From the IMG/VR virus record IMGVR_UViG_3300024344_000002, positions 1-64,000 of that record: a stretch of DNA of 64,000 bases; one strand, 5' to 3'. The stretch is from a virus. The notes below the pieces were generated by a model that searched no databases, was not told where the DNA came from, and was given only the letters and a program-made list of their open reading frames with translations. The position numbers and the translations under genes were made by a program. How positions within the stretch are numbered: position 1 is the stretch's first letter; each line of letters opens with the position of its first letter. Of the stretch, positions 3,052 through 47,277 are shown piece by piece.

Positions 3052-3237
3052 ATGAATATTTACGATGTACTAAGCAAAGTACACACAAAGGCAACAGGGG
3101 AAGTTCAAGAGTCTGTAGAGGAGGATCTTAAGGTAGATGATCCGCCTGTAGAAGAAGCAAAGGCAATCTTAGCAGAAAAAACTGATGAAAGTACCAAAGG
3201 GAATGACGGAAAGCGAAGTTCTAAGCGTAATAAATAA
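3052..3237 (+). CDS. Small acidic protein before the sigma-like gene
   Basis: 61 residues, rich in Glu, Asp and Lys (for example VQESVEEDLKVDDPPVEEAK), probably disordered. The AGAGGTAATAC before the ATG at 3052 is a good ribosome binding site. It opens the rightward transcription unit, and its end overlaps the next gene, which suggests translational coupling. No homologous family is recognised. It could be an anti-sigma or adaptor-like partner for the adjacent sigma-like protein, but only its position suggests this. Confidence 0.55.
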   Translation: MNIYDVLSKVHTKATGEVQESVEEDLKVDDPPVEEAKAILAEKTDESTKGNDGKRSSKRNK

Positions 3238-4508: not shown

Positions 4509-5248
4509 TGAAGACTGATCTTGTTACTGGTATGCATAGAACTGGACATCATGCTATAGCTGTTTGGTTATCTCATCAGTTTTCCGGTATATCTAATTTT
4601 TCTTTCTCTACTGTAGCTAGCTGGCTTATGGCTAATGAGACAGACAAAAGTTTAATACTAATGGCTAACAATCCTCTAAGAGAAGGCCGGAATGAAAACC
4701 CAGACAAGAAGAAGCTGCCCCTAATACTAAATGATGTAAAACCACAAAACCTGATAATCACTCACGAACAAGAGAGACTAGAAAGACTAACAACAATATT
4801 ACAACAATCGCCCTACTCTATTAATAAACCCATAGTTGTAATCCGTGACTTTAGAAACTGGGTAGCAAGCTGTATCAAAATGGCTCTACGGGATAATAAA
4901 ATCATAGAAGAAGTAATAAGCTATGAAAAAATAGAGGTCTACCATAACCATATTAAAAACTTCTGGAATGACGACTACTATTTCATTCTCTATAACAAAT
5001 GGGCTACAGACAAAAACTACAGACAAGAGATTTGTAAATACTTAGAATACTTTTTCACAGATGCTGCCAAAGAGCAATTGTCTATCTTCGGTGGCGGAAG
5101 CTCTTTCGATGCTTTAGACTATTTAAAGAACGCTTCCGGTATGGATGTCAATAACCGCTACCAAGAAATGGAAAAACATCCATACTACGAAACTATATTG
5201 GAAAAATACCAAGGAACCCTAAGACTAAGTAATAGAATATTCAAATGA
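4508..5248 (+). CDS. Sulfotransferase-like protein
   Basis: 246 residues. The N-terminal GMHRTGHHAIAVWL (8-21) matches the position and shape of the 5'-phosphosulfate loop of PAPS-dependent sulfotransferases. VVIRDFRNWVAS (110-121) matches the 3'-phosphate motif with its Arg and Ser. These enzymes move a sulfate group from PAPS to sugars or other acceptors in the cytoplasm, with PAPS supplied by the host. The start overlaps the previous stop by one base (TAATG), and the end overlaps gmd by four (ATGA), so it is tightly coupled to nucleotide-sugar synthesis. The acceptor is unknown, but a surface or virion glycan is likely from context. Confidence 0.7.
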   Translation: MKTDLVTGMHRTGHHAIAVWLSHQFSGISNFSFSTVASWLMANETDKSLILMANNPLREGRNENPDKKKLPLILNDVKPQNLIITHEQERLERLTTILQQSPYSINKPIVVIRDFRNWVASCIKMALRDNKIIEEVISYEKIEVYHNHIKNFWNDDYYFILYNKWATDKNYRQEICKYLEYFFTDAAKEQLSIFGGGSSFDALDYLKNASGMDVNNRYQEMEKHPYYETILEKYQGTLRLSNRIFK

Positions 5249-6270
5249 AAAAAGCAATCATATACGGTGTAACAGGACAAGATGGATCATACCTATCTGA
5301 ATTATTACTTTCTAAAGGATACATAGTATATGGAATAGCCCGTAGAACTTCCACTAACAACACTATCAGAATAAAACATTTGCTAATACAAAAGCAGTTT
5401 CATCTTATTCAGGGTGATGTTACAGACCCTACCAGTATTTTTAGGACTCTAAACGAAATACAACCTGACGAAGTGTATAACTTGGCGGCTCAATCGCATG
5501 TCGGGACTTCTTTTAATCAACCAACATTGACTTGGAATATAACCGCACAAGGATGCCTCAATATCCTCGAAGTGATTCGTCAGATGGTGAACCGGCCACG
5601 GTTCTATCAAGCGAGTTCGTCAGAAATGTTTGGCGACCAGTTTAGCCTCGACAGGAATGGATATAAGTATCAAGATGAAAAAACCAGATTCTCGCCTCAA
5701 TCTCCATACGCTATTGCTAAGCTTGCTGGTCACAGTGCAGTTTCCCTTTATCGCCGCTCTTATGATCTATACGCCTGTGGCGGTATTCTATTCAATCATG
5801 AATCGGAAAGAAGAGGCGAGCGATTTGTAACGAGGAAGGTCAGTCGCTATGTGGCTGATTTCTATTGGGCGACCCAGCAGGGTCGTAGTATTCCCAACCT
5901 AAAACTTGGGAATCTACATGTGCAAAGAGATTGGGGTCACGCTGAAGACTATGTAAAAGCCATGTGGATGATGCTGCAACAAGACAATCCTAAAGATTAT
6001 GTAATAGCTACCGGAAATACCTACTCGATAGAAGATATGGTAAAAGAAGCCTTTCAGTGTATAAATATTAATGAGTATGAAAAATATGTAGAAATAGATG
6101 ATAGCTTAAAAAGACCATCTGAAGTTCCATATCTTAAAGGCTCTCCTAAAAAGGCCAAGAAAGAGCTAGGGTGGGAAGAAAGCATCACTTTTGAACAACT
6201 AATAAGTCGGATGGTAGAAAATGATATTCAGAGTAGATGTGAATATGGAAAAGATGTATCCGCACCTTGA
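5245..6270 (+). CDS. gmd: GDP-mannose 4,6-dehydratase
   Basis: 341 residues, close to full family length. It converts GDP-mannose to GDP-4-keto-6-deoxymannose, the precursor of fucose, rhamnose, perosamine and related sugars. The sequence shows the NADP-binding GVTGQDG (8-14), the catalytic SSSEMFG segment (124-130), the YxxxK pair Tyr155/Lys159, and the family signature FNHESERRGERFVTRK (about 183-198). No GDP-fucose synthase or reductase is seen beside it, so the host may finish the sugar. The middle of the gene (about 5470-5960) is visibly richer in G+C than both ends, a sign of mosaic origin. Confidence 0.93.
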   Translation: MKKAIIYGVTGQDGSYLSELLLSKGYIVYGIARRTSTNNTIRIKHLLIQKQFHLIQGDVTDPTSIFRTLNEIQPDEVYNLAAQSHVGTSFNQPTLTWNITAQGCLNILEVIRQMVNRPRFYQASSSEMFGDQFSLDRNGYKYQDEKTRFSPQSPYAIAKLAGHSAVSLYRRSYDLYACGGILFNHESERRGERFVTRKVSRYVADFYWATQQGRSIPNLKLGNLHVQRDWGHAEDYVKAMWMMLQQDNPKDYVIATGNTYSIEDMVKEAFQCININEYEKYVEIDDSLKRPSEVPYLKGSPKKAKKELGWEESITFEQLISRMVENDIQSRCEYGKDVSAP

Positions 6271-20144: not shown

Positions 20145-20783
20145 ATGAAACCTAAAAAGTGTGCTTTAGTAAGCACGCCTAGAGCGGGTACACATTATTT
20201 AAGAATGAGTTTGGACAACCATCCAAAAGTTAGATGGGGAGGAGAACTTTTTAGACCAGAAGTAAAGTGGTCAAAAGAAGAAGAGGAAATAAGAAGTTAT
20301 ATCTATGACGATGTATCTTTTGAAAATATAAATAGCTTTAATTATATTGGTTTTGTTTGGCATTTGTGTCTTGAGAGCGATTTATCGCCATCTAATGTAG
20401 ACAAGTTCATTTTATTAAAAAGGAGAAACAGTTTACTTCAAATGGCATCACTTCTTATAGCAAGTGAAACTGGTAATTGGAGAGACACTAAAGCGACCGA
20501 AAAAATAAAGCTAAATATAGCACAACTGGAATGGTTTATAGAACGTCAAGAAAACTATTACAAAAACTTTGAAAGTTGGCAAGTAGAACACAAAGTAGTT
20601 TTTTATGAAGATCTTTGTAATTCGTTTGAAGAAACAATAAGATCAATACAAGAATACTTGGAATTGGACTACTGTAGGTTAGAACCTGCTAAACTAATAA
20701 AACAGGAAACAAGACCGCTACAAAAAATTATATCCAACTACGAGGAAGTCAAATGGATTTTGCAAGATATGAATTTACTTTGA
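20145..20783 (+). CDS. Sulfotransferase
   Basis: 212 residues. VSTPRAGTHYLRMSLDNHP (9-27) is a clear 5'-phosphosulfate loop. KFILLKRRNSLLQMASLL (87-104) fits the 3'-phosphate binding segment with its Arg and Ser. The overall order resembles Stf0-like bacterial sulfotransferases. It starts two bases after the fibre gene stop with no obvious ribosome binding site, so it is probably translated by reinitiation. It overlaps the following methyltransferase by 31 bases. The substrate is unknown. A glycan on the fibre or on the host surface is the natural candidate from context. Confidence 0.78.
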   Translation: MKPKKCALVSTPRAGTHYLRMSLDNHPKVRWGGELFRPEVKWSKEEEEIRSYIYDDVSFENINSFNYIGFVWHLCLESDLSPSNVDKFILLKRRNSLLQMASLLIASETGNWRDTKATEKIKLNIAQLEWFIERQENYYKNFESWQVEHKVVFYEDLCNSFEETIRSIQEYLELDYCRLEPAKLIKQETRPLQKIISNYEEVKWILQDMNLL

Positions 20784-21373
20784 ATTGCGATCATCCTGAG
20801 TGGTTAACAGATATAAGACATATAAATATTATATATGAATTTTTGATGGCAAATGATTTCCAAAGAGTCCTTGAAATAGGTTCGTATTCTGGGGTTTCGA
20901 CTGCTGCTTTTATTGAAGCTATGAATCAAGGTAAAGATTTCAAGTTTCATATCTCTGAGCCTAACCCGACAAGACAATTACAAGCTTTGATTTCGATGTG
21001 CAAAAAGCCCGATAATATTATTCTGCACACACAGTCAGGTGAAGATGTTTTGAGCTACTGGAGAGACTTTAACTTTGTTTTTGTAGACGGTAGTCATGAT
21101 TTAGAAGGCGCTGGTGCAGAACTGTTAATGATTCTCAGACATAGTATTCCAAACGTTATGGCTCACGATACAAACCTTTCTGAAATAAAAAGCGACTATT
21201 GTGGAAGAGGTACTGAGCTACTATCTAGAGTATTTAAGTCACATAAAGATTACTACTGGATAGAAGATAAAAAAGAAAGACCCAACGAAAGAACAGATAG
21301 AGGATTTTTGTTTGCAACTAGAGAAAAAGAGAAATACAACAAAACAACAAAGATATTTGAAAAGCTATGTTAA
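20753..21373 (+). CDS. Class I SAM-dependent methyltransferase
   Basis: 206 residues. VLEIGSYSGVST (39-50) is motif I for S-adenosylmethionine binding, FVFVDGSHDLEGAGAEL (about 108-124) is the motif with the active-site acid, and MAHDT (136-140) is the following strand. This matches the Methyltransf_24 group that often modifies sugars or polyketides. GAGGAAGTCAA precedes the ATG at 20753 within the end of the sulfotransferase gene. The C-terminus is basic and charged. With the sulfotransferase and the second methyltransferase it forms a glycan-tailoring run. Confidence 0.75.
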   Translation: MDFARYEFTLNCDHPEWLTDIRHINIIYEFLMANDFQRVLEIGSYSGVSTAAFIEAMNQGKDFKFHISEPNPTRQLQALISMCKKPDNIILHTQSGEDVLSYWRDFNFVFVDGSHDLEGAGAELLMILRHSIPNVMAHDTNLSEIKSDYCGRGTELLSRVFKSHKDYYWIEDKKERPNERTDRGFLFATREKEKYNKTTKIFEKLC

Positions 21374-22047
21374 TATATTTGACTGATATTAAACAGATGC
21401 CTAAGTGGACTAAAATACACGGAACTTTAGAGGAGATTTTTGACTACGGCTCTAAACAAGGACATAAAGATATACAACACTTAAAACTTTTTGGTCTTCA
21501 TAAAGATGAAAAGCGAGATGTAAGACATAACATTTATCATCCGATAGATTACGTTTCTCATAATGTTAGGACAGTGATAGGAGAGTTTGACTCAATAGAA
21601 CACTTAGATAAATTTAGACCAGATAATTCAAGAGTAGTAAGGGAACTAGATAGAGAAAATAATGTCTCTATAATGAAAGTAAAATTTCCAATAATGCAAC
21701 AGAAGCATAAAGATTATTGCGATGATGCATATACAAATAAACTATTTAACAAATTAAGTAAAGACGAAAGAATACTTTTTTGTTATGTGACAACTAGCGG
21801 AAAGGGCATAAGGTTCGGTTTTAAGTTAAACGAAAGAGTAGAGAGTGATTTGGAGTACATTTCAAATTACTACTTTTACGGTAAGGAGTTCTTAAAGCAC
21901 GATGAGGAAAACAGGTTTGGCATTGAGCATAATGCTAGTAGTACAGGTAGTTTTTATGAGCTTGGCAATGTCGCTAGCGTATATTGGTTCTTACCTAATA
22001 CAGATAAGTGGCATGTTAGAAACTCTGTAGAACTTAAAAAATTATAA
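21367..22047 (+). CDS. Hypothetical protein, possibly PrimPol/VirE-N-like
   Basis: 226 residues, overlapping the genes on both sides by 1-7 bases. The C-terminal half contains YVTTSGKGIRFGFKLN (140-155) and then EHNASSTGSFYELGNVASVYWF. This order (Ser-Gly-Lys-Gly turn, strand, later polar strand) resembles the BT4734/VirE N-terminal domain linked to archaeo-eukaryotic primases. The expected catalytic acid pair is not obvious, so the assignment is weak. Its place among glycan-modifying genes is odd for a primase-like protein. It may instead be a member of an uncharacterised fold. Confidence 0.35.
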   Translation: MLIYLTDIKQMPKWTKIHGTLEEIFDYGSKQGHKDIQHLKLFGLHKDEKRDVRHNIYHPIDYVSHNVRTVIGEFDSIEHLDKFRPDNSRVVRELDRENNVSIMKVKFPIMQQKHKDYCDDAYTNKLFNKLSKDERILFCYVTTSGKGIRFGFKLNERVESDLEYISNYYFYGKEFLKHDEENRFGIEHNASSTGSFYELGNVASVYWFLPNTDKWHVRNSVELKKL

Positions 22048-22634
22048 TGGATTATAAATTTACGGAAGATTGGTTTTCTGAAAACAACCCAGAAAAAGTA
22101 GTTCGTCAATTTGACGAGTTTTTATCTGAGTTCAAGGATAAACCTTCGACATTTCTTGAGATTGGATCTTTCGAGGGGATGTCAACTATATGGATGTTAG
22201 AAAATATACTAACAAACAAAGAGTCAAGACTTTTTTGTATTGATGCTTGGGCTGAATGGACTGAAGATGCCTTTGTAAGATTTGTAGAAAATATAAATAA
22301 AACAGGACTTAAAGACAAAGTCCGTATTGTCAAAGGAGATTCTTCAGAGGAGTTAAGAATATTTCCAAAAGAATACTTTGATTTCATCTATGTAGATGGA
22401 GATCATGACGAAAAGGCTGTTATCAAAGATGTGATAGGATCTTTTAGAGTTTTGAAAAAGGGAGGAATAATAGCTTTTGACGATTATTTATTAGGAATAA
22501 GGTATCCAAATAGTCCCGGATCAAAGGCTATGAATGGGTCAACAAAAAAAGCAATTGATTATTTTCTTGATGTATTTCAAGATGAACTTGAAATTATACA
22601 CAAAGATTATCAGGTGTGGATCAGAAAGAAATGA
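22047..22634 (+). CDS. Class I SAM-dependent methyltransferase
   Basis: 195 residues. FLEIGSFEGMST (36-47) is motif I, FIYVDGDHDEKAVIKDV (113-129) carries the acidic active-site pair, and LKKGGIIAFDDYL (136-148) is the next strand with FDDY. The layout is close to the cephalosporin-hydroxylase/Methyltransf_24 group often used in sugar O-methylation. It shares its architecture with the enzyme at 20753, but the sequences differ widely, so these are not recent copies. It overlaps the neighbouring genes by a few bases (TAATGG, ATGA). Confidence 0.78.
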   Translation: MDYKFTEDWFSENNPEKVVRQFDEFLSEFKDKPSTFLEIGSFEGMSTIWMLENILTNKESRLFCIDAWAEWTEDAFVRFVENINKTGLKDKVRIVKGDSSEELRIFPKEYFDFIYVDGDHDEKAVIKDVIGSFRVLKKGGIIAFDDYLLGIRYPNSPGSKAMNGSTKKAIDYFLDVFQDELEIIHKDYQVWIRKK

Positions 22635-23395
22635 AGATAGCAATAGCACAACTATATACAGAAAGTCTTGACGATTGGGCTTATATAGCCGTAGATAATA
22701 AACAAAAATACTGTAGACTGCATGGATATGACTTAGTCAATAGAAGAGGACTTTATAATACTAAGCTTGATGTAAGACATCCTAGTTGGCATAGCGTCAA
22801 ATTAATATTAGAAATTTTAGAAACTTCAAATGTGGATTGGGTTTTTTGGTCTGATGTGGATGCGTTAGTAATGGATTACACGGTAAAGCTAGAAAGCTTT
22901 ATTAAACCTAAATATGATATGGTAATACCAGATCAAGGACAGGGGGAATACTGCGGAATAAAAACTAACAGTTGTCTTTGTTGCGGTCACTACTTTGTAA
23001 AAAACACAGAGTGGTCAAAACAATTTTTAAAAACTCTTTGGCGATGGCCACAGGGAGAATTTGAAAAATATAAAGAAGAGAACTATTGGGAGCAATGTGG
23101 CATGAACTATCTCTATAATAAAAATGAGATGGATTTTGATAAACATGTTTATATAGAGTCAAGAAACAGAGCATTTAACTCATTTTATTACCAGACAAAA
23201 GATGGAGATCCAATGGAGTTTTGTCAATGGGGTGAGGGATGGTTCAGAACAGAAAAATCACAAAAAGCTTTGGATGATGGCTTGGGGTCTTCCTATGTTA
23301 AAGGTGATTTCATAGTTCATTTTGCAGGAGCGCATTGCATCCCTCAAAGAAAAGAACTCATGGAAAAATATTCAGAGAAAGTAAAATGGAACTAA
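22631..23395 (+). CDS. GT34-like glycosyltransferase
   Basis: 254 residues from the ATG at 22631, which overlaps the previous stop as ATGA. A GTG at 22616 is possible but less natural. The fold signs are MKIAIAQLYT, then DWVFWSDVDALVMD with the metal-binding Asp75-x-Asp77, a Cys-bearing NSCLCCGHYFVKN, and a C-terminal FIVHFAGAHC. This order matches the GMA12/MNN10 (GT34) galactosyl- and mannosyltransferase family, which uses UDP- or GDP-sugars. The end overlaps the next structural gene by 10 bases. The acceptor is unknown. Confidence 0.75.
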   Translation: MKIAIAQLYTESLDDWAYIAVDNKQKYCRLHGYDLVNRRGLYNTKLDVRHPSWHSVKLILEILETSNVDWVFWSDVDALVMDYTVKLESFIKPKYDMVIPDQGQGEYCGIKTNSCLCCGHYFVKNTEWSKQFLKTLWRWPQGEFEKYKEENYWEQCGMNYLYNKNEMDFDKHVYIESRNRAFNSFYYQTKDGDPMEFCQWGEGWFRTEKSQKALDDGLGSSYVKGDFIVHFAGAHCIPQRKELMEKYSEKVKWN

Positions 23396-24213
23396 TAGTA
23401 AAAATTAAATCCGATGGGTCTAACCCGCGATATCAAGACGGCGACGTAGTTGATGCCATGTCTCTTGATCGTATTTATTTAGCTCATGCAGAGATGATAT
23501 GCCATCCTAATAACTTTGGTTTTAATACTAATGGGACTAGAGACTTAAATACTTTATTTCAGAAGTTTCAAGAGGCTACTCATATTTATAAGTTTGAGAG
23601 AGTTAATAGCAATGATGTTAAAAGAACTAATCTATTAACTAGTGAAGAAGATATTCTTAACACTATCCCAAATGCAGACGGCGAGGCTATCAATGCATAC
23701 AAATATATATCTAGGAGACTTAAAAGCCCTAGACACAAAATATTTGGGCCTAGTGGTAGTGAAATATGGTATGGCAAAATGAGAAGTGACGCTGAGGTTT
23801 TTATTCCAGTAGTTTGGAATCATATAGAGACCGAAAGCGATAATTTGCAAAGTGGTCATAATAGCTGGCCTTTTACAGACCTAGAAAAAAGACATTTTAT
23901 CTGCATTAACACTTCGGGAAGAAACTATGATGGCGATTCCTTTACTAGAGTTGAACTTTCTGGAGATACAGTCACCACTAGGGCTTTACCTGCTGTAGAA
24001 GATCCTCCAGAAGATCCCTCAGAAGATTATAGCCCTGTTATTCTAGCTAAAAGAAAGTGGTTTGTTCCATATTGGGACTTAAGCACAGAGCTTGGAAGTT
24101 CTGTAGATGATTTAAGAAATCCAGATCATATGTGTGATTGTAGAAAAGCAATGGACGAAAGAGAGCATATTGATATTTTGACTTATGACAAAGTCTCAGA
24201 AGGAGTATTGTAA
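23386..24213 (+). CDS. Structural-module hypothetical protein
   Basis: 275 residues from MELIVKIKSDGSNPRYQDGD at 23386. A longer start at 23335 would run deep into the previous gene and lacks a ribosome binding site. It has a beta-rich start, a helical middle (DLNTLFQKFQEATHIYKFERV), a Pro-rich hinge (VEDPPEDPSEDYSP) and a C-terminal Cys pair in HMCDCRKAMDE. Proteins of this type occur repeatedly in aquatic siphovirus tail regions with unknown role. It stands between the glycosyltransferase and the beta-helix protein. Confidence 0.5.
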   Translation: MELIVKIKSDGSNPRYQDGDVVDAMSLDRIYLAHAEMICHPNNFGFNTNGTRDLNTLFQKFQEATHIYKFERVNSNDVKRTNLLTSEEDILNTIPNADGEAINAYKYISRRLKSPRHKIFGPSGSEIWYGKMRSDAEVFIPVVWNHIETESDNLQSGHNSWPFTDLEKRHFICINTSGRNYDGDSFTRVELSGDTVTTRALPAVEDPPEDPSEDYSPVILAKRKWFVPYWDLSTELGSSVDDLRNPDHMCDCRKAMDEREHIDILTYDKVSEGVL

Positions 24214-25334
24214 TGGCTACCGTAACAAAAAGTATAGGAACAAGCTCCAGAGATTACTCTACTATTAATGCATGGGAAGCAGATTTAAATAGCGGTACTA
24301 TATATTCAAACGGAGATACTGCTGTTGGTGAAATGTATGCAGACTCTACTTTTACAGGTGCTACTAGCACTATAGAAAACGGAAGTGCGATAGGTGGTAG
24401 CTCTGGACATGATCTTGCATTAATTAAGCTCACCGTCCATGCAGACAGTAGGCATGATGGAACAGCGGAGAGTGGAGCGTTATTAAAACCGACAGCTGAT
24501 TCTGGTCATAACCAAGGCATTATTAGAATAAATGTAGATAATGTAATAGTTGAATGGTTAGATATAAGCTTAGACAGTTTAGACTCTAAGAATACTAATA
24601 AGGCAATAGTCCTTACGGGGACTAACGATGATTGCATTCTTAGGAATATACTGATTCATGACAAAGGAGGAAACCCCGGAGGTACTGGCCCATTCATGAT
24701 CCATCTACTCGGAGCAGGTGCTTCTAGTGATACGCTGACTATTCAGAATAATATTATCTATAACATAGTTGAAGGTAGCGGCGATAATGCCGCCGCCATG
24801 CTTTTAAATCTATGGGCTGGTACTGTGAATGTATATAACAATACCATATATAATATAGAATCTCAGGGTGGTTCTAAAGTAGCTATTGGAATTAGAAGCG
24901 CCCACACTAGCGGTTCTACATCAAATGTTAAAAACAATATAGTCGCAAAACTAGTTTCCGCAGCATCAAATGGAGAAAGAGCTTTTGAGGATGGAATAGC
25001 CAATGGGAGTGCTGGAACTTTCAATGAAGCTTATAACCTGTCAGATGACACGTCGGCAACCGCATACGATGCCCGTGGAACAGGGTCTCTCGCAAATAAA
25101 ACACTAGCTGAAATAAGTTTTGTTTCAACTACTGGCGGCTCAGAAGATCTTCATATAGATGCAGATTCGGATTGCGTGGACGCTGGAGTAGACTTAGGAA
25201 CTACTAACGGCGTAGAGATAGATATTAATGGGAGAAACAGAGACTCCAATGGAGACACTTGGGATATTGGCGCACATGAGTTTGTAGCAGATGCTGACAC
25301 TACTGGCGCTGCATTCATTATGTTTGTGGACTAA
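24213..25334 (+). CDS. Beta-helix tailspike-like protein
   Basis: 373 residues. Repeated short strands with Asn and Ile (IIRINVDNVIVEWLDISL, CILRNILIHDKG, LTIQNNIIYNI, VNVYNNTIYNI, SNVKNNIVAKL) are the ladder of a right-handed parallel beta-helix. The end has RDSNGDTWDIGAHEF, as in choice-of-anchor-Q proteins that follow such helices. AAGGAGTATTGTA gives a good ribosome binding site. It is likely a spike or adhesin that binds or cuts host polysaccharide. No catalytic residues can be named with confidence. Confidence 0.7.
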   Translation: MATVTKSIGTSSRDYSTINAWEADLNSGTIYSNGDTAVGEMYADSTFTGATSTIENGSAIGGSSGHDLALIKLTVHADSRHDGTAESGALLKPTADSGHNQGIIRINVDNVIVEWLDISLDSLDSKNTNKAIVLTGTNDDCILRNILIHDKGGNPGGTGPFMIHLLGAGASSDTLTIQNNIIYNIVEGSGDNAAAMLLNLWAGTVNVYNNTIYNIESQGGSKVAIGIRSAHTSGSTSNVKNNIVAKLVSAASNGERAFEDGIANGSAGTFNEAYNLSDDTSATAYDARGTGSLANKTLAEISFVSTTGGSEDLHIDADSDCVDAGVDLGTTNGVEIDINGRNRDSNGDTWDIGAHEFVADADTTGAAFIMFVD

Positions 25335-26132
25335 ATGGAAAAAAATATAACCATAATAATACAAGGGCCTCTTTGCGAAGATGGATTAAGACCAATAAAG
25401 CATTATCAAAGCTTTGGTAATGTGGTCGTTTCTTGCTGGAATACAGATCAACCTCACCTAACCACTAAAATACCTAAAGAAGCTAGACTTGCTATAAACA
25501 AATACAAGCAAAATATTGGCTATAATTTTCAAAACATAAAATATCAAATACAAACAACACTTGCGGGCTTAGACCTTTGCAAAACAGGATATGCAATCAA
25601 AGTAAGATCAGATGAGTATTTTACAGACATATTTAAAATTGTTGAGTCTATAAAAGAAAACCCAGACAAGCTTACTGTCTCAAACTTCTTTTTTAGAAAA
25701 GATGTTCTTTTCCATCCGTCAGATCATATTATTGGGGGAAAGGCTGAAAACATAAGGCATATGTTTGAAAATGCTCTTGAGTTCATAAAAGACTTTGAAG
25801 CAAACCAAATAGTCACTATAGAAGAAATTGGATTAGATAGAGCCTACACTTTTTCTGTTTTAACTGCCGAGATAGTATTTTGTTTGTCTTACTTAAAAAG
25901 TAAGGGAGTTGATGTAATATCTGATGTTAAGGGAATGAAGCCAGAAGAAGTGTATATATATCATAGAGAGATTGTCAAGGAAAACTACTCACTTGTAAGA
26001 GCTTCAGACTTAGGCCATTTTTTGATGAGGTTTAAGAGCAACCCGAACCCATATGGGCCTACAGCTTTTACTAACGAAGACGACTTTTTAGGATATGAAA
26101 TCGGTTCAATAAAATCCTTAGAAGAGTTGTAA
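25335..26132 (+). CDS. WavE-like lipopolysaccharide synthesis protein
   Basis: 265 residues, starting at the base after the previous stop. ITIIIQGPL (5-13), NVVVSCWNTDQP (29-40), the long Asn/Gln helix before TTLAGLDLCKTGYAIKVRSDEYF (74-96) and a later TAEIVFCLSYL match the WavE family order, with Arg91-Ser-Asp93-Glu in the position of a DxD-like site. WavE proteins act in LPS core synthesis in Vibrio, probably as glycosyltransferases. It lies between the beta-helix protein and the Ser-rich protein, so the glycan genes are spread among fibre genes. Confidence 0.72.
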   Translation: MEKNITIIIQGPLCEDGLRPIKHYQSFGNVVVSCWNTDQPHLTTKIPKEARLAINKYKQNIGYNFQNIKYQIQTTLAGLDLCKTGYAIKVRSDEYFTDIFKIVESIKENPDKLTVSNFFFRKDVLFHPSDHIIGGKAENIRHMFENALEFIKDFEANQIVTIEEIGLDRAYTFSVLTAEIVFCLSYLKSKGVDVISDVKGMKPEEVYIYHREIVKENYSLVRASDLGHFLMRFKSNPNPYGPTAFTNEDDFLGYEIGSIKSLEEL

Positions 26133-36981: not shown

Positions 36982-39900
36982 ATGTCCGACAAGTTTCTTT
37001 TAACAGCACAATTACACTTACAAGCCCCTACTAATACAAAACAGGTATTGAAACAGATTCAAAACCAGTTGAAAGGTGCTAATGTAAATGTTCAACTCAA
37101 AAATGCTAAGCAGACTGTTACTCAGTTAAAGCAGACAGCTAAACAACTGCAAACTGTACAAAAACAAGCTAAAGGTGCTGAAACTCAAATGGACCGGCTT
37201 GGAAAAGCTTTCGGTCAAACTTTAAAGTATATTGTTCGATACGACCTTGCTCGTAGAGTTTTTAGTCTATTTACAAATGCTATTGAACAAGGTACTAGAG
37301 ATGCTATAGCCTTTGAAAGAGAAATGGTAAAAGTTTCTCAGGTTACTGGCAAGTCAATGAGGCAACTTTCTGGCCTTACCAAAGAAATTGGAAACCTTGC
37401 TAAAGCATATGGTACTTCATCTGCTCAATTAGTAAAGACTGCTCGTGTTTTGTCTCAAACAGGTATGGCTGCTAGAGATGTAGAAATGGCTATGAAGTCT
37501 TTAGCCAAAAGTACATTAGCTCCAACCTTTGACAATATTACAGATACTGCTGAAACTGCTATTGCAGCTATGAGGCAGTTTAGATTGGAAGCCAATCAGT
37601 TAGAGGGTCTCTTAAATAAGATCAATGTTGTCGCCGGTAACTTTGCTGTTGAAGCTTCTGATATTGGTGCTGCTATTAAGCGTGCCGGTGGTGCGTTTGC
37701 TTCTGCTGGTGGACAAGTAGAAGAGTTCATAGCACTCTTCACTTCTGTCCGTGCTACAACGCGAGAAACTGCTGAAACGATTGCTACTGGTATGAGAACT
37801 ATCTTTACCAGAATACAAAGACCTAAAACAATACAATTTCTAAAACAGTTTGGTGTAGAGCTGCAAAACTTAGAAGGTCAGTTTATTGGGCCTTACCAAG
37901 CTGTAGAACAATTAAACAAAGCTCTAGCTGGTCTAGACCCTAAAGATGTTCGTTATTCAATGATTATTGAACAGCTTGGTGGTTTTAGACAAGTTTCTAA
38001 AGTTATTCCACTTATTCAACAATTTGGTACTGCCCAAGATGCTTTGAATAAACAAATGTCTTCCCAAGGAAGTTTGTCCGCAGATGCTGCCAAAGCTCAA
38101 AAAACTCTTGCTGTTCAGATCGCCCAGTTAACTGAAAATGTTAAAGAGCTATTTAGAAATATAACTTCCTCTGCCACTTTTCAAGTCCTTGCTAAAGGCG
38201 CTGTTGCATTTTCTAATGCTATTGTAAAAGCCGCTGATGCTATCTCTGGATTGATACCTATTCTTGGAGCCTTGTTTGCTGTTAAAGGTATGAAGTGGTT
38301 AATGGGAGGAGGTATGTCAACGATACTGGGTTCTGGTGGTGGAAGACCTAGACCCTATGGACCTGCACCTCAAGGATTTAGTCAGGGTGGTTGGGTTCCC
38401 GGAACTGGTAGTGGTGATACTGTACCAGCATACTTAGAACCGGGTGAATTTGTTATTCGTAAACGTTCTGCTCAAAAACTTGGTCCTAGATTAAACTCTC
38501 TTAACAAGTATGCTGGTGGCGGTGTTGTTTCTGCAAAACACACCGGGACGGTAGATGGCGATACTTATAGAGCAACTTTGAGAAATAGTGGAAAACCGTA
38601 TAGTAGTCGTACTAGACTCAAAGGTTATGACGCTGCTGAAATGCCAATTGAGCGTGAGAAAGAAATATGGAAAGCGCATGGAATAAATCCTGATACTGAT
38701 CATCCGGGTATCGTAGCTAAAGGCATAGCAGAGAGTTATGCTAGCAAATTAACTCCTAAAAAATTCACAGCGATGTTTACAGGTAAAGATGGATCAGGGC
38801 ATGGGATGGGTGCTTTTGATAGACCTCATTATAAAGCTGACGATCTTGGTGAACAGCTAGTAGGTGCGGGAGTTGGTGCAAAAGGTAAGTTTAGTATTTA
38901 TGACTGGCTTGTAAAAAATAAAGGGCAGAAGAAAGCAGACGCTATAGTGAAGGCGGGTAAAGCAACTAAGGATAAAAGTGTTCGTTCAAGAGGAGATAAG
39001 TACAACAGAGGCGGTAAAGTACGCGCTCCTAACTCTTTGTTAACTCCCGGTGAGTTTGTTGTTAACAAAAAGTCTGCTAAAAGAATTGGTTATGGCACGC
39101 TTGGCTCTCTGAATAGATATGCTGTTGGTGGTGTGGCAGGCGGTGGCTTAGGATTCGCAGGTGGTGGACTTAACGCAGAACAGGCTCAAGCGTTAATTGA
39201 CGCAATAACAAAACTAGTTCCTTCTTTTGAGAGACTACAACTAGCTACTGGAAAAGTTGGTGATGTTTTTGAGGCCACAAAAAATGCAGGAAAAGAATTA
39301 ACTAAATTTGCCGCTTCTACAGCTGAAGCTGGAGCTGAAGTTGGTCTACAGTACGCTAAGTTTAAGGCTTTTGGCGGTGCTGTTAATGCAGGTCTAGATT
39401 CTATAGGTTTGCAGAATACTGCTTTTGAATCTCTCGTAGATACTACGTTTCAAGTAAAAGCTAATTTAGCCGCTATGGGTGAAGCAGCCAATCAACTAAA
39501 AGGTGACTTCGGAGATGCTGCTCAAGGATTTTTTGAAACTTTAGCTGGTAGTGGAAAGCTAGGCAAAAAAGCTAAAGGGTTTGCAGAGGGTGGAGGCATT
39601 GGAAAGATTCGAGATAGGCTTACACAAGATGCAGAAGCTGCCGGTAGGTTTGGTGTGGGTGGCAAAGGATCTAGAGATGCTCTAAAAATGGAGCAAGAAA
39701 AACTTCCACAGATGCGAAAACAGGTGGAATCAAAACAAAAAGAATTAGACGCATCAAATAAAGCGTTAGAAAAAGCTAAGCGCGCTCAAGCATATAAAGC
39801 TCCCGGTGACACTGGAAAGCTAGACAGAGCGAGATACGAACAACAACAAGCTCAAGAAAGCTTAGGTAAAGCGAAAGGTCGTGTAGCTGGGGGAGAAAAA

Positions 39901-42900
39901 TCAGTTAGAAAAGCGCAGATGAAGGGCATGGCCATTCAAGCTGCTGCTGCTTTAGCTACTAGTGTTGGTAAAAAACTTGAAGCTACAGGAATGGCCGCAG
40001 CAGAGGCGGGTGAAGGAACTGGTATGCAAGCTGCTGCTGGTAGATCTTTAGGAATGGCTGGACAGGGTGCGCAAATGGGTGCTATGTTTGGTCCTATGGG
40101 TGCTGCTGCTGGTGCTGTTACCGGTGCGCTTATTGGTTTTGTCACAGGTCTTAGAGATGCTAAGTTAGCTCTCGCAAAAGCAAGACTTGGCGAAGTTATG
40201 GAAGACACTGCTGAAACGATGCAAAAGTTCCGTGATGGAACAGCAACAGCAGCTGAAGTGCAGGCAAAATTAAATACGCAATCTACTGCTATTGATGATT
40301 TTAAGGCTGAAGGAATGGGGGGATATGCTGGAAGCACTGCTGGAAATAATGCAACGAATATTGTTGCCGGAGCGACTTCTGGTGCAGCTATTGGTGCGGC
40401 TATTGGAAGTATCGTTCCTATCTTTGGAACTGCTGCTGGTGCAATTGTCGGTGGTATCACTGGTGCAGTTACTGGTTTCTTCGCGGATTGGGCAGGACCA
40501 GACACAGAAGCTGTCACTGCTGAATGGGCTAAATCAACGCTAGAAATGCAGAAAAATATAAAAGAATTCCGAACTGGCGTTATTAATACCTCTAAGTCTT
40601 TTTCACAATTTGAATCTAATTTTGGAAGTGAAAATATAGATAGAATTGCCAAGATGGAGGGCAAGACTAGACAACAAGTAGTAAAAGAAATAACGAAAGA
40701 AATAAACGAAAGGAACAAACAAAGAGAAGCAGCTGAAAGACTAGTTGAAGCTCAAAATGAAGCAACTAAACAAATGATTAGGATGCAGCAATTGGGTCAA
40801 GTCTTTGATGAGCTGTCTTTTAGAATGGAAGGTTTTGGTAATGTACTAGATGGATTATCTAACATCACCGGAAGTGTCAAAATAGGATCTATAGGTTCAG
40901 CTCTTTCTGACGAAAGAATGGCTTCTAGAGATCAAGCTTCAAGAGATAGATATACAGGCAACGTTGATGCACTCACTAATATGGCTGGTGAGGGCGACAT
41001 GGGCTTAAAGAATTTTGCAGATAGTGCAAAGGGTGGCGCAATACTATCTCAAGAACTTGGAAGAGCCTTGACTATGAATCGAAAAGGCATTGGTGTTACA
41101 AGAAAGTTAGACGACGAAGGCAATATGTCTATCGTCGAAGGTAGCTTCGCTCAGAATGTAATGGACACCATACCTAAAGAGCTTGCCGATAAAATTCCAC
41201 CGGATATGTACGATCAGGTTAAAGACAACATAGCTGACATGGTTGTCGCTGAAGGTGGTTTAGAAAACCTACAGAAGAAGATACAAGAAGATCCAGATGC
41301 TCTAGTGAAAGAGCTTACAGGCGGATTGACTGAATCTAATAAAGCGTTTGAACAAGCTGGTAAAATGCTTGATTCTCATAATGCTAAGCTCCAAGAAGCG
41401 TATGCTAAACGCAACTCAATGGAGATGAGCTTTATAAAAACTCTACAAGATTTAAATACTCGTAGAGCATCATTAGTTGCCGATGACAGGGTGAGAAGAG
41501 GCGGTAAAGGAATGAGTACCGCAGAAGCTAGGGCTTTAGACGCTAAAAACAGAGGCGTAGCCATGAATGCAGTTTCTGCCGGTACTATGGCTTCAACTGG
41601 TTTAACAGCTGGTTCTGGACCAAAAGAAATTGCTAAAGCTATGGCTAAAGTTCGTGAAGACATAAAACAGAGCGATGAACAATTAGCAACCCAAGGAGTG
41701 ACGGGCGTTGGTATGGACTCTTCGCAGGGGTTGGCTGATTCACAAAAAGATCTAATAAAAGCGAACGCAGACTTAAAATCTGATTATGAAAAACTGCAAG
41801 GGGTTATGCAGCAATATGCTTCTTCTCAACAAGAGATGATCGCTCTTAACAAAGAGTTAGAGCAGCAGCAAAAGAAACAAAAGACATTAGAGCAATTAGC
41901 TGAAGATATGGCTTTTGGTACTGCTGAGCAAAAAGGTGAAGCCGCCAAGGTGATGAATGAGCTTGCTAAAGCTAAGACTATGGGAATTGGCGCTGTAGAT
42001 CCTGAATATCAAAGACAAATAGTAGGTCTTCTCAAACAAACTGGTAACGAAGACTTAGTTACTTCAACTATAAATCAAACCGCAGCAAATGCTGGAGTAA
42101 TGTTAGATCCAAAGACTGGTGGTATCAAAGGGGTGACAACCGCTAGCGATAAACGTAATGAAATTGCTGACAGGATGAAAGAGCTTGACGAACAAGGTCT
42201 AGCAGCCGCAGAAGGTTTAGCTTCTGAAGAAGGTCAGATACTAGCTGACTTCTCTGCTGGTATTGAGTCTCTTCATCAGAAGTTCTTAAGTGAACTCTTT
42301 AACATGTTAGCAGAAGCAAGAAAGAGAGAGTTAGAAGATAGAAAAGCCGACTTAGAAGCAGAACAAGAGGTTACACAAAAGCAGTTAGACTTCTTCGGAA
42401 AAGATGCAGCTGCTGCCTTGGGAATAGAAGATATAAGCAAGCTCAAGTTCAAAGATGGAGATACAGAACTTACTGGAGCTGCTGCTATGGAAAGAATTAT
42501 TCAAGGAGGATTTCTGGGGCAAGTCACTCAAGCTCAAAATATACAATCAAATATGGCAGGTAACCCTCTCGCAGCAGCTGTCATGGGAGGTATGGGAACC
42601 GAAGTATTAGATGACTTCCGTGACGGAAGCCATAATGCCATTCTTGAACAGCTTGGAATTACGGCAGCGGATGTTTACTCCACAGGATCTGACGCAAATG
42701 AAGATACTGACTTAGATGCAGCTAATACAGATATGGCGCAGCATATAGCAGCTAGAATGGGAGAAGAGCTAAGCAAAGCAGGTTTTGATATTGATGGTGA
42801 TACGCTACAAAAAAGATTGCTGGACAGACTTTCACCCGAAAAAATGGAATCTCTTGGCGGCTTTGACTTTGATGATTGGATAAGTGGTCAATTAGAAGCA

Positions 42901-44673
42901 ATAGGTAGAGGCGCTAGAAATCAAGTAAAACTCACTGGCAAGAATCAAGAAGCTCTTCAAGCTTTACAAGGGGCTAATGCTACAAACTTAGGTTCAGGTG
43001 CGCAGTCCCAAATAGACAAACTGCAAGCAGAAGCTGGCATCGAAGCAGGCATACAATTTGACATAGGCAAAGCAAACGAAGAATTAGATAAATCTATTGA
43101 GAAGCTTGCTACTACAGTCAATGAAATGGCTGACCTTGATAAAAAGACAGGAGCCAAAAAAGTTGAACAAGCCGAAGCTGAAGCAAAGATTGAACAAAAG
43201 AGACAAGAAGAAAACAAAAAAGTAACAGATCAAATCAAAGGTGATACAGGAGTTCCAGTAGCTTCTGTTGGTGGAAGTGCAGCACCAATAGCTGCTACAA
43301 CATTTAATGCAAGTCCAATAGTAGGAATGAAACAGGATCTGCCAACTCCTATGTCATTATCAGACATGCCAGATGGAGAGTGGGTAGGGCCTTCATTAAG
43401 TCAAACTGGACCCGAAGCAGAAGCAAAAGTTATAGCTCAAGAAATGACTAAACAGCAGAGCATTGCTCCTAGTGCTGCAAGCGGAGGAGGAGCATCTTCG
43501 TTTATCAGTAATATGGGTAAAGGTTTATCTAATGCACTTTCAAAGGGTAGCGAGTTAATTTCCCAAGTAGACCCAACAAGCATGAAGAAGGCTATGGTAG
43601 CTGCTCAGTCATCAAGTAGACGCGAAAGATTAGCCGAACTCAAAGAACAGATAAAAGGTACTACAGAACAACAAAGTAGATTTAAATCCATTCACAAAGA
43701 GGGAACAAGCACGAATATGCTTGAAACTCTGAATAGCTATAATCCGATGACGGGGTTTGGCATGATAGGTCCGAATAGTGACTTCCAAAGCAAAACTGGC
43801 ATGAGCAAAGATTTTGTTGAAAGAGAGATGGGTAAAGGTGCAGAACAATTAAAGGGTCTAAAAGCAGAACAAGCATCTTTGTTAGCTGAAGAAAAAATGG
43901 CAGCAGAAGTAGCTGCACAAGAACAAGCAGCAGCAGACGAGGCTGCAAAGTTTGAACCTTTGATTCTAGCTATTACTGACGGTAGCTTGGCGATAGTAGA
44001 AGCGATTGAAAATTCTGCTATGAGCGCAGAGCAAAAAAGAGCTGAGGCTGAACAAGCAGCCCAAGAACAAGCAATCGCAGAACAGACAAAGACTCCAGAG
44101 CAATTAGCTCAAGAGGCGGCAAAGTCAGCATCAATGTCAACTGCGCAATCACAAGTAGATAGCTTGTCGAAATATGGACTAAACACTGGAATATCCACTG
44201 CTTCTAATACACTAAGAAGAGAACAGGAAAGACAAGCAGCAGAAGCAGAAGCTGTTAAGAAACAAGAAGAACTAGCAAAACAATTAAAGAATGGAGCGGG
44301 AGATGCCTTAGCTCAAGCTGGTGCGAGTGATCTAACGCCTGATCAACAAAAACAACTTTCCTCAAAATTAGAAGCGCCGGGTTCAGAAGGGTTATTGTCA
44401 GCTCTAGGTGTTGAACCATTACAAGAGCAAGTAGAAAGACTTGGTTCTATATTTGAAAATGCGCTTCAAGTTGAAGTTGGTGGTACTATAGATGTAAACG
44501 TTAATATGAATGGTGCTGAAGCATTAGCGAATGCTGAAAAAGCATTTGGATCATTAGCTTCTAAGAAAGCTACTGATGCAATAAATAACTTTATTAGTGA
44601 AATGAATAAAGGCGGCAATAACGCAAGACCTAAACAGAAGGAAAATTGGACTGGTAATGGAGAGGCAAGCTAA
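36982..44673 (+). CDS. Tape measure protein with embedded SNase-like domain
   Basis: 2563 residues. It sets tail length and is ejected ahead of the DNA. Residues about 100-350 are a TP901-type core (AFEREMVKVSQVTG, LVKTARVLSQTGM, NVVAGNFAVEASDIGAAIKR, ATTRETAETIATGMRTIFTR). PGEFVIRKRSAQKLG (487-) and PGEFVVNKKSAKRIG (689-) are two copies of a tape-measure motif. Between them residues about 519-665 resemble a staphylococcal nuclease (GTVDGDTYRA, RTRLKGYDAAEMP). Gly-zipper hydrophobic segments near 1041 and 1126-1170 could line a membrane pore. The rest is coiled coil rich in Ala, Glu, Lys, Gln. By the usual 0.15 nm per residue, the tail would approach 0.38 micrometre. Confidence 0.93.
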   Translation: MSDKFLLTAQLHLQAPTNTKQVLKQIQNQLKGANVNVQLKNAKQTVTQLKQTAKQLQTVQKQAKGAETQMDRLGKAFGQTLKYIVRYDLARRVFSLFTNAIEQGTRDAIAFEREMVKVSQVTGKSMRQLSGLTKEIGNLAKAYGTSSAQLVKTARVLSQTGMAARDVEMAMKSLAKSTLAPTFDNITDTAETAIAAMRQFRLEANQLEGLLNKINVVAGNFAVEASDIGAAIKRAGGAFASAGGQVEEFIALFTSVRATTRETAETIATGMRTIFTRIQRPKTIQFLKQFGVELQNLEGQFIGPYQAVEQLNKALAGLDPKDVRYSMIIEQLGGFRQVSKVIPLIQQFGTAQDALNKQMSSQGSLSADAAKAQKTLAVQIAQLTENVKELFRNITSSATFQVLAKGAVAFSNAIVKAADAISGLIPILGALFAVKGMKWLMGGGMSTILGSGGGRPRPYGPAPQGFSQGGWVPGTGSGDTVPAYLEPGEFVIRKRSAQKLGPRLNSLNKYAGGGVVSAKHTGTVDGDTYRATLRNSGKPYSSRTRLKGYDAAEMPIEREKEIWKAHGINPDTDHPGIVAKGIAESYASKLTPKKFTAMFTGKDGSGHGMGAFDRPHYKADDLGEQLVGAGVGAKGKFSIYDWLVKNKGQKKADAIVKAGKATKDKSVRSRGDKYNRGGKVRAPNSLLTPGEFVVNKKSAKRIGYGTLGSLNRYAVGGVAGGGLGFAGGGLNAEQAQALIDAITKLVPSFERLQLATGKVGDVFEATKNAGKELTKFAASTAEAGAEVGLQYAKFKAFGGAVNAGLDSIGLQNTAFESLVDTTFQVKANLAAMGEAANQLKGDFGDAAQGFFETLAGSGKLGKKAKGFAEGGGIGKIRDRLTQDAEAAGRFGVGGKGSRDALKMEQEKLPQMRKQVESKQKELDASNKALEKAKRAQAYKAPGDTGKLDRARYEQQQAQESLGKAKGRVAGGEKSVRKAQMKGMAIQAAAALATSVGKKLEATGMAAAEAGEGTGMQAAAGRSLGMAGQGAQMGAMFGPMGAAAGAVTGALIGFVTGLRDAKLALAKARLGEVMEDTAETMQKFRDGTATAAEVQAKLNTQSTAIDDFKAEGMGGYAGSTAGNNATNIVAGATSGAAIGAAIGSIVPIFGTAAGAIVGGITGAVTGFFADWAGPDTEAVTAEWAKSTLEMQKNIKEFRTGVINTSKSFSQFESNFGSENIDRIAKMEGKTRQQVVKEITKEINERNKQREAAERLVEAQNEATKQMIRMQQLGQVFDELSFRMEGFGNVLDGLSNITGSVKIGSIGSALSDERMASRDQASRDRYTGNVDALTNMAGEGDMGLKNFADSAKGGAILSQELGRALTMNRKGIGVTRKLDDEGNMSIVEGSFAQNVMDTIPKELADKIPPDMYDQVKDNIADMVVAEGGLENLQKKIQEDPDALVKELTGGLTESNKAFEQAGKMLDSHNAKLQEAYAKRNSMEMSFIKTLQDLNTRRASLVADDRVRRGGKGMSTAEARALDAKNRGVAMNAVSAGTMASTGLTAGSGPKEIAKAMAKVREDIKQSDEQLATQGVTGVGMDSSQGLADSQKDLIKANADLKSDYEKLQGVMQQYASSQQEMIALNKELEQQQKKQKTLEQLAEDMAFGTAEQKGEAAKVMNELAKAKTMGIGAVDPEYQRQIVGLLKQTGNEDLVTSTINQTAANAGVMLDPKTGGIKGVTTASDKRNEIADRMKELDEQGLAAAEGLASEEGQILADFSAGIESLHQKFLSELFNMLAEARKRELEDRKADLEAEQEVTQKQLDFFGKDAAAALGIEDISKLKFKDGDTELTGAAAMERIIQGGFLGQVTQAQNIQSNMAGNPLAAAVMGGMGTEVLDDFRDGSHNAILEQLGITAADVYSTGSDANEDTDLDAANTDMAQHIAARMGEELSKAGFDIDGDTLQKRLLDRLSPEKMESLGGFDFDDWISGQLEAIGRGARNQVKLTGKNQEALQALQGANATNLGSGAQSQIDKLQAEAGIEAGIQFDIGKANEELDKSIEKLATTVNEMADLDKKTGAKKVEQAEAEAKIEQKRQEENKKVTDQIKGDTGVPVASVGGSAAPIAATTFNASPIVGMKQDLPTPMSLSDMPDGEWVGPSLSQTGPEAEAKVIAQEMTKQQSIAPSAASGGGASSFISNMGKGLSNALSKGSELISQVDPTSMKKAMVAAQSSSRRERLAELKEQIKGTTEQQSRFKSIHKEGTSTNMLETLNSYNPMTGFGMIGPNSDFQSKTGMSKDFVEREMGKGAEQLKGLKAEQASLLAEEKMAAEVAAQEQAAADEAAKFEPLILAITDGSLAIVEAIENSAMSAEQKRAEAEQAAQEQAIAEQTKTPEQLAQEAAKSASMSTAQSQVDSLSKYGLNTGISTASNTLRREQERQAAEAEAVKKQEELAKQLKNGAGDALAQAGASDLTPDQQKQLSSKLEAPGSEGLLSALGVEPLQEQVERLGSIFENALQVEVGGTIDVNVNMNGAEALANAEKAFGSLASKKATDAINNFISEMNKGGNNARPKQKENWTGNGEAS

Positions 44674-44679
44674 GACAAG

Positions 44680-47277
44680 ATGGCTACTTATATAGGTTCA
44701 TCATTAATAAACGCAAGAGCAAGAATGCTCAGCAATGTACATGCTAGCGGAAATCTTCCTGTTTCCGTTGGTACTGTAGGTACATTGCATAGACCCGGTG
44801 AAACTAATGACATTGGACTTGTAATGTTTGGGGAGGTTGAAAGAGCGCCTCAAAGGTTTGTTGCACCAAGTGGTACAAATAGAGAGTATGCATATTGGAG
44901 AGGAAACCAAAACAAACAAACAGTTCAAAAATTTGATCAAGCTTATATGGCTTTAGAAGGTAGTGGAATATATGGTTCTGCACCTCAAGTGATAGTAGAA
45001 ACAGGTGACTCTTCAGGCAGTGGAACCTGTTCTGAAGGCAGTGGTCAGGGTGGCTGTACTTGGTTTTGGGATTTATATAGTGGTGGTTGGATATCTTATG
45101 GAAGCGTATGTCCCGATGGTTGTGGTTGTGGTAATCCACCATCTTACAATGGGTCAATGTATGGAGAAATAACTAACACTGATTGTACTGGCTCAACAGC
45201 AACCCAAACCGGACAAGGTGTAGGAGATGATGTCGGTTACGCTAGATGGTTCAAAGCCGGAGAAACAAAAGACTACCTTGGGGATGAAGCTATTACTCAA
45301 AGATCTCTTTATCTTAGTGAGAGATCGTTCATCAATGTTGGCAGTGGTGTTGATATTGGGCAGACTTCAGGATACACAGCATTTGCTAAGTTTGTGCCTA
45401 GTGGAGACATGTCTAACACCGTCTTAGTATCTCAACATAAAGAAAATCCAGCCTTATTTGTTTTGGGTTGTGACTTTGATGGCAAATTTTACATCAGATC
45501 TGACAGTTCATCAACCGAGTTAGGCCGAGACAATATAGCCCAATTTGCTAAGTCAAGAGAAACATACGAACAATACAAGTATCCAGTACACTTGATGGGT
45601 GTATACGCTTCTGGAGATTCAAGATTAAAGCTCTATGTTAATGGAAAGCTAGAAGGCGAATCAGAAACATTCACTAGAATCACAAATAAATCAGCTAACA
45701 CTAATATGATTTTGGGCAAACGAGAGTTTGCTATGACTCAAAAAGGTTTTACTGGGTGGATAGATGAGATTGGAATATCTTCAAGATCTCTTGGTTCTAC
45801 TGAAGTGCAGTCTTTTTATGATAGCACATTCTCAATATCAGATTTAATATTCAACGCTGATGTTACTCCAACAGGAGGTGCGTTAGAAGGTACTGCATTT
45901 GGTGACTCTGGTATAGACGCTTTCAATGAAACTTATGCAGAGTTACATATTGAATCTGGAAATCCTTATAACGCAAAAGGAGGAGCTTACGATTTAAAAT
46001 CTTGGGGTGGTACTAACAATGCGGTATCATCAGTTCTTACATTTGATTTAACTCAAATAGACCCTAGATTTCATCAGTTAGAATCTCTTTCTGTTGACAT
46101 GTGGGTGGAACACAACACCACGCATCCAAGCGGAGCTGATGTGTCTGTTGTGGTAGAAAATCAGAAAACGCCGAATGTTAACTTAGCTTGGGCAGCATCT
46201 GGGATAAATATCCCGTCTGGTCAAAAAAGGCTATTATCTTTTAATAAACCTTTAAGTCAGAACTTGTATACTAAGACTGGTAAAGAGTCTTATAACTTGT
46301 CATTGGATAGACACAAGCTAAAAATTATCGTTTCGTATCCTGCCTTAGATAGTTTGTACAATGCTGAGTTTAGAATTTTCTCCAGTAAATTAATGTATGA
46401 CGGCTTTGACATACTTTCTAAGTATAATAGTAAGGATGGATTGTCTATAGGTCCTACAATCTATGGGCATGGAGTTTTGGATGAAGATGGCTATTATGCA
46501 TCATATGACACTGGCGATAAAAGCTTAACATTTTTCACTGAAGGTGGAACTCCCACTGCCGCAAGTGGAAACTTAGCTTTATTTGTTGACGCTGATACTG
46601 CTGCACAAAGCTTAAACTTAGTATTGAATCATGATCCTCAAACAAGCCTTGGTAACACTGCTACCGGTTCTTTAGCAGCTAATGCTGGTGTTACAATGAA
46701 CACCACTCTTGGTTTGTTTACTAAGTTTGGACCAGCTTCTGGAAACCTTAATTTATTCTTGAAGCAAAAAGAATTTAGAAAAGCAGTTCCCGGTACATTG
46801 AATTTTGACATTACCGGCTCTGAATTTGTATATCCATACAATCAGAAAAATATGCCTTTGTTCCTTCTTTCTTCTGCTGGAACTGGGATACATGCAGCTG
46901 AAATGTTTTTGACTATGCCAAAAACTATAGCTCCTCCTATATTCGATAAACGCTTACTGTTTATTGAAGGTAGGCAACCAGTAGCTGATATACCTTTATG
47001 GATACAAACAGCTTCTGGAATTAATAGATTTTCCACTTTGTATGTGTTAGCTCCTAATGCTGCATCTACAAATACAAATATGAATCTATTTTTGAAAGAT
47101 AAAAATATATTTTCTACGTCATCATTGAAGGCTAATGCCGGTATTGTAATGAGTGGCGTTCCTCCATTGTTTGTCAGTGGTCTAGGACTTGGAAGCGGTT
47201 TATTAAATTTGAGTATACCAAACACTATTGGTTCTGGTACTTCCAACACAACACTAACTACAAAAGGTATATTTTAA
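44680..47277 (+). CDS. Tail protein with LamG-like domain and Cys/Trp insert
   Basis: 865 residues. After an N-terminal tail-tip domain comes a Gly/Cys/Trp-rich insert (about 111-172) with CTWFWDLYSGGWISYG and CPDGCGCGNPP. Residues about 210-380 resemble a concanavalin/LamG fold: SFINVGSGVDIG, YTAFAKFVPSGD, HLMGVYASGDSRLKLYVNGK, GWIDEIGISSRSLG. The final third repeats short LFL/NL strands separated by SG turns (ASGNLNLFLKQ, NTNMNLFLKDK). LamG folds often bind carbohydrates. It follows the tape measure, where the distal tail protein gene is expected, and may be an adhesive distal tail component. Confidence 0.65.
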   Translation: MATYIGSSLINARARMLSNVHASGNLPVSVGTVGTLHRPGETNDIGLVMFGEVERAPQRFVAPSGTNREYAYWRGNQNKQTVQKFDQAYMALEGSGIYGSAPQVIVETGDSSGSGTCSEGSGQGGCTWFWDLYSGGWISYGSVCPDGCGCGNPPSYNGSMYGEITNTDCTGSTATQTGQGVGDDVGYARWFKAGETKDYLGDEAITQRSLYLSERSFINVGSGVDIGQTSGYTAFAKFVPSGDMSNTVLVSQHKENPALFVLGCDFDGKFYIRSDSSSTELGRDNIAQFAKSRETYEQYKYPVHLMGVYASGDSRLKLYVNGKLEGESETFTRITNKSANTNMILGKREFAMTQKGFTGWIDEIGISSRSLGSTEVQSFYDSTFSISDLIFNADVTPTGGALEGTAFGDSGIDAFNETYAELHIESGNPYNAKGGAYDLKSWGGTNNAVSSVLTFDLTQIDPRFHQLESLSVDMWVEHNTTHPSGADVSVVVENQKTPNVNLAWAASGINIPSGQKRLLSFNKPLSQNLYTKTGKESYNLSLDRHKLKIIVSYPALDSLYNAEFRIFSSKLMYDGFDILSKYNSKDGLSIGPTIYGHGVLDEDGYYASYDTGDKSLTFFTEGGTPTAASGNLALFVDADTAAQSLNLVLNHDPQTSLGNTATGSLAANAGVTMNTTLGLFTKFGPASGNLNLFLKQKEFRKAVPGTLNFDITGSEFVYPYNQKNMPLFLLSSAGTGIHAAEMFLTMPKTIAPPIFDKRLLFIEGRQPVADIPLWIQTASGINRFSTLYVLAPNAASTNTNMNLFLKDKNIFSTSSLKANAGIVMSGVPPLFVSGLGLGSGLLNLSIPNTIGSGTSNTTLTTKGIF

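Follow-up and report, generated by a model that had tools for sequence, protein, structure and literature searches.

An exchangeable slot carrying a staphylococcal-nuclease-type domain in the tape measure protein of an uncultured aquatic phage

In an uncultured aquatic tailed phage, residues 515–661 of the 2563-aa tape measure protein (TMP) constitute a divergent staphylococcal nuclease (SNase) domain, as judged by sequence homology and a predicted structure, and the domain occupies a slot that in related phages is filled by other, mostly nuclease-like domains. The TMPs of relatives that are nearly identical elsewhere carry unrelated slot contents, suggesting that these phages inject an exchangeable nuclease into their host along with their DNA. 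The delivery of the domain, its enzymatic activity and its target are inferred.

A predicted SNase domain inside the tape measure protein

We analyzed a window of 64,000 nucleotides, the first 64 kb of a 73.3-kb linear virus record (IMG/VR IMGVR_UViG_3300024344_000002), which belongs to a tailed phage with terminase, portal and head genes. The TMP is encoded at 36982–44673 (+), and its assignment is supported by TIGR01760 (tape_meas_TP901, residues 98–419, E 6e-31, 107.7 bits against a cut-off of 28.8), by Pfam PhageMin_Tail (PF10145, residues 139–334, E 3e-27, 96.1 bits against 33.2) and by the PHROG tape measure family (E 4e-28). The gene is followed at 44680–47277 by that of an 865-aa protein with a concanavalin A-like (Laminin_G_3) domain (E 1e-10). 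Between the tail fibre gene and the tail genes, at 20145–26132, lies a set of sugar and surface-modifying genes, encoding a sulfotransferase, a methyltransferase, a glycosyltransferase of family 34 and a WavE-like protein, while a nucleotide-sugar epimerase is encoded at 5245–6270. The search for a host identified none, as the MAG hits were scattered over unrelated phyla and are probably binning noise.

A sequence-only reading had proposed an SNase-like domain in this protein on the basis of short motifs, and that observation holds. DGDT starts at residue 525, RTRLKGYDAAE at 543, HGMGAF at 607 and LGEQLV at 622, the two PGEFV motifs start at 487 and 689, and Asp527, Asp550 and Glu553 had been numbered correctly. 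The domain itself (38524–38964, +) is nevertheless not recognized when searched alone. Pfam, NCBIfam, PADLOC and phmmer against the PDB returned nothing for it, and PHROGs matched only its flanking motif. A single-sequence scan of viral contigs gave no relative of the domain, and a scan with the whole TMP gave one, cut by its contig end. The Pfam SNase profile (PF00565) matched nowhere in the genome record, although the TMP domain itself would not be expected to match given its divergence. Relatives were therefore needed to establish its identity. Even the best of them, the slot designated L180 (L numbers denote the relatives' loci), reached only 14.8 bits against the Pfam cut-off of 21, and hmmsearch of the PDB with small profiles gave only chance hits.

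Seven slots carry this domain, those of the window, L127, L141, L180, L209, L214 and L213. A profile built only from the other six finds the window's segment, and nothing else, in a six-frame translation of the window (E 3e-9). AlphaFold2, applied to the seven-sequence alignment, gave an SNase-like model with a pLDDT of 80 and a pTM of 0.75, in which residues 148–174 of the modelled piece are disordered. All 50 listed PDB matches found by Foldseek are staphylococcal nuclease (best E 3.5e-4, probability 1.00), albeit with modest TM-scores of 0.33–0.55. L209 hits a Streptomyces "thermonuclease family protein" over 89% of its length (E 4e-5), whereas L180 weakly hits free-standing cyanophage endonucleases, one of them noted as containing PF00565, and weakly the NucI thermonuclease model. 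A profile–profile comparison (hhalign) of the TMP domains with seven such proteins gave 97.5% with E 6.3e-12, while an unrelated cassette family, used as a control, gave 0.1%.

The catalytic positions are complete, covering both the metal ligands and catalytic acid (Asp21, Asp40 and Glu43 equivalents) and the catalytic arginines (Arg35 and Arg87 equivalents). In the joint alignment with thermonucleases the invariant columns are D, G, D, R, G, E and R, corresponding in the window to D525, G526 and D527 (38554–38562, D527 being the Asp21 equivalent), R545 (38614–38616, Arg35 equivalent), G548, E553 (Glu43 equivalent) and R614 (38821–38823, Arg87 equivalent). D550, the Asp40 equivalent (D550 to E553 spans 38629–38640), lies in a column that is D or N in the joint alignment but is invariant among the seven TMP domains. 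R614, in FDRPHY, aligns with the arginine of KYGR in thermonucleases and of KFGR in L180. In the L141/L213/L214 subgroup the Arg87 equivalent is less certain, because the alignment does not place it, although FGRYLID is a candidate.

The sequence-only interpretation is thus supported in part. An SNase-type domain with its metal ligands does lie inside the TMP between two PGEFV motifs, it is plausibly a nuclease carried by the ejected TMP, and the fold and the acidic and arginine positions, which had been set beforehand as the points on which the proposal would stand or fall, all came out in its favor. The suggested inactivating replacement of the arginine by histidine is not supported. It arose from aligning HGMGAF with YGRxL, whereas the arginine is R614, seven residues downstream of that histidine, and nothing in the sequence predicts inactivity. 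Nor is the suggestion that the domain was inserted by duplication of the PGEFV motif supported, since both copies occur in every relative with a complete slot that we extracted. Each copy resembles its positional counterpart in other phages (mean identity 0.79 and 0.67) more than the other copy in the same protein (0.53 on average, 0.35 in the window), so the pair is ancestral and not a mark of this insertion. The further proposal that the nuclease excludes competing phages remains a hypothesis, as do its activity and target.

Exchange of slot contents among related tape measure proteins

Terminase relatives led to TMPs in large contigs, in most of which the similarity to the window's TMP stops at residue ~517–548 and, where a further match was found, resumes at ~656–683. 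The exception is L127, whose slot is also SNase and aligns through. Profiles of the TMP N-terminal part then retrieved 460 and 503 relatives in two scans, of which 80 were kept per scan, and from these we extracted 105 distinct complete slots, including the window's, between the first and second PGEFV motifs. Loci cut by contig ends, or with a variant first motif, were set aside. As the slots were sampled by similarity of the TMP N-part, the proportions given here are not a census.

Of the 105 slots, 7 hold an SNase and 87 (L213 counted in both) match a single profile with the pattern G..FE...fDf...(D/E)AK. In the 94 stretches of that family, E is present in 94/94, D in 94/94, D or E in 94/94 and K in 89/94, which is the signature of PD-(D/E)XK nucleases. 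This assignment is made at the motif level only. A truncated 107-aa core modelled well (pLDDT 88) but had few strands and no PDB match, and no Pfam family supports it. Of the 12 remaining slots, eight (L132, L135, L138, L149, L159, L173, L216 and L230) show E..D..(D/E)xK by eye, two (L126 and L130) look like degraded relatives of the L132/L135 type, with motif residues lost, and two (L150 and L239) hold no recognizable nuclease signature, so the slot may accept other cargo. The slot of L213 (5941–7698 of that locus) stacks three modules, namely an SNase, a P-loop NTPase stretch (AAA_30, E 6e-4, below cut-off, with GPAGSGKTT) and the E..D..(D/E)xK domain. L118, a giant TMP of 4416 aa, has extra PGEFV copies with long extra segments between them (residues ~2688–4272), one stretch of which (YRGLGDDGG...WWTTD...) resembles an ADP-ribosyltransferase by eye.

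Pairs of TMPs that are nearly identical elsewhere carry unrelated or very different slot contents. The identities of the N-part, slot and C-part are 99.0%, 29.7% and 89.1% for L256/L262, 98.6%, 25.8% and 79.8% for L186/L199, and 94.3%, 29.6% and 90.0% for L145/L159. L173 and L180, which hold a PD-(D/E)XK-like and an SNase domain, respectively, have N-parts that are 83% identical, though their C-parts also differ. On a tree of the TMP N-part, the SNase is scattered and needs at least five changes, and L127 and L180 each have a non-SNase sister.

At the DNA level, homology in relatives ends about 60–90 nt after the first PGEFV and resumes about 30–60 nt before the second. In the window, the first border motif (38386–38523, +; residues 469–514), conserved in an 11-sequence alignment, has its PGEFV at 38440–38454, and the second (39001–39132, +; residues 674–717) has its PGEFV at 39046–39060. 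The copies are positional orthologues across the group and could serve as recombination borders. The base composition gives no sign of recent foreign DNA, since the GC content of the slot is 0.418 against 0.401 and 0.423 for the parts of the TMP on either side. PGEFV is also not special to the cargo slot. The T4-like cyanophages S-SM2 and Bellamy carry the same GG.VPG.G..DTVPAMLTPGEFV motif, without a matching pair, in a protein beside the baseplate hub genes (L291, 5002–7302, and L292, 5065–7464), apparently their TMP, which is annotated as a transmembrane or hypothetical protein.

Possible role of the cassette and alternative explanations

Our preferred explanation, held with moderate confidence, is that the segment is an SNase-family domain with all catalytic positions kept, carried as one cassette in an exchangeable slot of the TMP and acting as a nuclease effector. 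The sequences and the predicted structure establish the SNase homology, the complete catalytic positions, the slot bounded by two ancestral motifs and the replacement of slot content in otherwise near-identical TMPs of relatives. The remainder is inference, namely the presence of the domain in the virion within the tail tube, its exit at DNA ejection and folding thereafter, its nuclease activity, and its target. In this view, the TMP would carry the nuclease to the inner membrane, periplasm or cytoplasm of the new host, where it would cut host DNA or RNA or the DNA of a resident or rival element. A Ca2+-dependent SNase would stay nearly inert in the low-calcium cytoplasm of the producing cell and become active on delivery. 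Cassettes would be exchanged by homologous recombination through the conserved motif-coding DNA, and their replacement while the carrier stays fixed suggests conflict with hosts or rival elements. Support for delivery comes from other work. The lambda TMP was proximity-labelled from ManZ at the inner membrane during injection (PMC13190303), and Tme, a TMP-like effector of a Streptomyces contractile injection system, has a working endonuclease domain (PMC11126660). Against this explanation stand the modest TM-scores of the SNase model to the PDB (0.36–0.55), the lack of fold or Pfam support for the commonest cassette as a PD-(D/E)XK nuclease, and the four slots that look degraded or show no nuclease signature.

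Other explanations appear unlikely. The nuclease may be active but serve the entry of the particle itself, by clearing extracellular DNA at the cell surface or acting on the phage's own genome end during ejection. The intact catalytic set and the absence of an identified target are compatible with this, and SNases are often secreted and work at millimolar calcium, but the exchange of unrelated cassettes in an otherwise fixed carrier fits conflict better than a fixed housekeeping step. Somewhat less likely, the nuclease may act in the producing cell late in infection, for example by breaking down host DNA or RNA, and only be stored in the TMP afterwards. The TMP is made late at many copies per cell. 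However, an SNase would presumably be poorly active at cytoplasmic calcium levels and could harm unpackaged phage DNA, and a position inside a virion protein is not needed for such a role.

It is similarly doubtful that the slot holds structural filler, that is, folded spacers that tune TMP shape or tail length, with decayed enzymes. The slot length varies widely in relatives (145–860 aa), and the related cassettes L126 and L130 have lost motif residues, but catalytic residues stay fixed while most of the domain varies. The SNase slots share only 20–36% identity with invariant D, D, R, D and E, and the signature residues of the other family are retained in the proportions given above. Finally, a chance resemblance to SNase in a domain of another fold is very unlikely. 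Although the single-sequence searches of Pfam and the PDB found nothing, the profile match with its clean control, the structural matches, all SNase among those listed, and the bridge through L209 and L180 to annotated thermonucleases and thermonuclease models argue against it.

A broader hypothesis, which we consider only slightly more likely than not, is that a large group of uncultured aquatic tailed phages has a dedicated, recombination-bordered cargo bay inside the TMP, loaded with interchangeable nuclease effectors (SNase, PD-(D/E)XK-like, sometimes several in one slot), making the virion tail an injector of polymorphic nucleases against host or rival genomes. Enzymes carried by TMPs have been thought of mainly as cell-wall hydrolases for entry. 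A conserved slot that swaps nuclease-like domains between otherwise near-identical TMPs would mean that phages deliver protein effectors together with their DNA, much as contractile injection systems do. The stretch between two PGEFV motifs gives a sequence rule for finding such effectors in hundreds of phage genomes, and makes it directly testable whether injected nucleases shape host takeover or competition between phages.

Relationship to known systems

Enzymes on tail proteins are known, and literature searches for nuclease domains in phage TMPs found only the precedents cited here. A recurrent, motif-bordered, exchangeable nuclease slot inside phage TMPs was not found in the open-access literature searched, which leaves out most subscription papers. 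With the SNase/thermonuclease family (PF00565; NCBIfam NucI and EcnA), the window domain shares the predicted fold, the order of elements, the Asp/Asp/Glu ligands and the two arginine positions. It differs in being built into a phage TMP, in its strong divergence, which places it below all library cut-offs, and in an inserted stretch after the Glu position.

Tme of the Streptomyces davawensis contractile injection system (PMC11126660) is likewise a tape-measure-related protein carrying a nuclease domain, loaded into a tail-like injector. However, its domain is of the DNA-entry-nuclease (EndA-like) type and lies at the C-terminus in a bacterial system, while here it is an internal, motif-bordered, exchangeable slot in phage TMPs with other nuclease types. 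An SNase-related domain is also fused to a phage tail structural protein in BtI1, a relative of Bacillus phage 0305phi8-36 (PMC2147016), but there it is on the gp27-like hub protein, as a single case in that paper, and no cassette slot was described. Polymorphic toxin modules (Rhs, VgrG, MuF and similar) also combine a conserved carrier with an exchangeable enzymatic module, often a nuclease. In our case the module is internal rather than C-terminal, with a phage TMP as the carrier, and no immunity gene was identified next to it. The TMP ends at 44673 and the next ORF starts at 44680, leaving no room for an immunity gene there. The muralytic domains of TMPs and tail lysins, for example T5 pb2, are similarly enzymatic domains carried by an ejected or tail-tip protein, but those cut peptidoglycan for entry, whereas the domains described here are nuclease-like.
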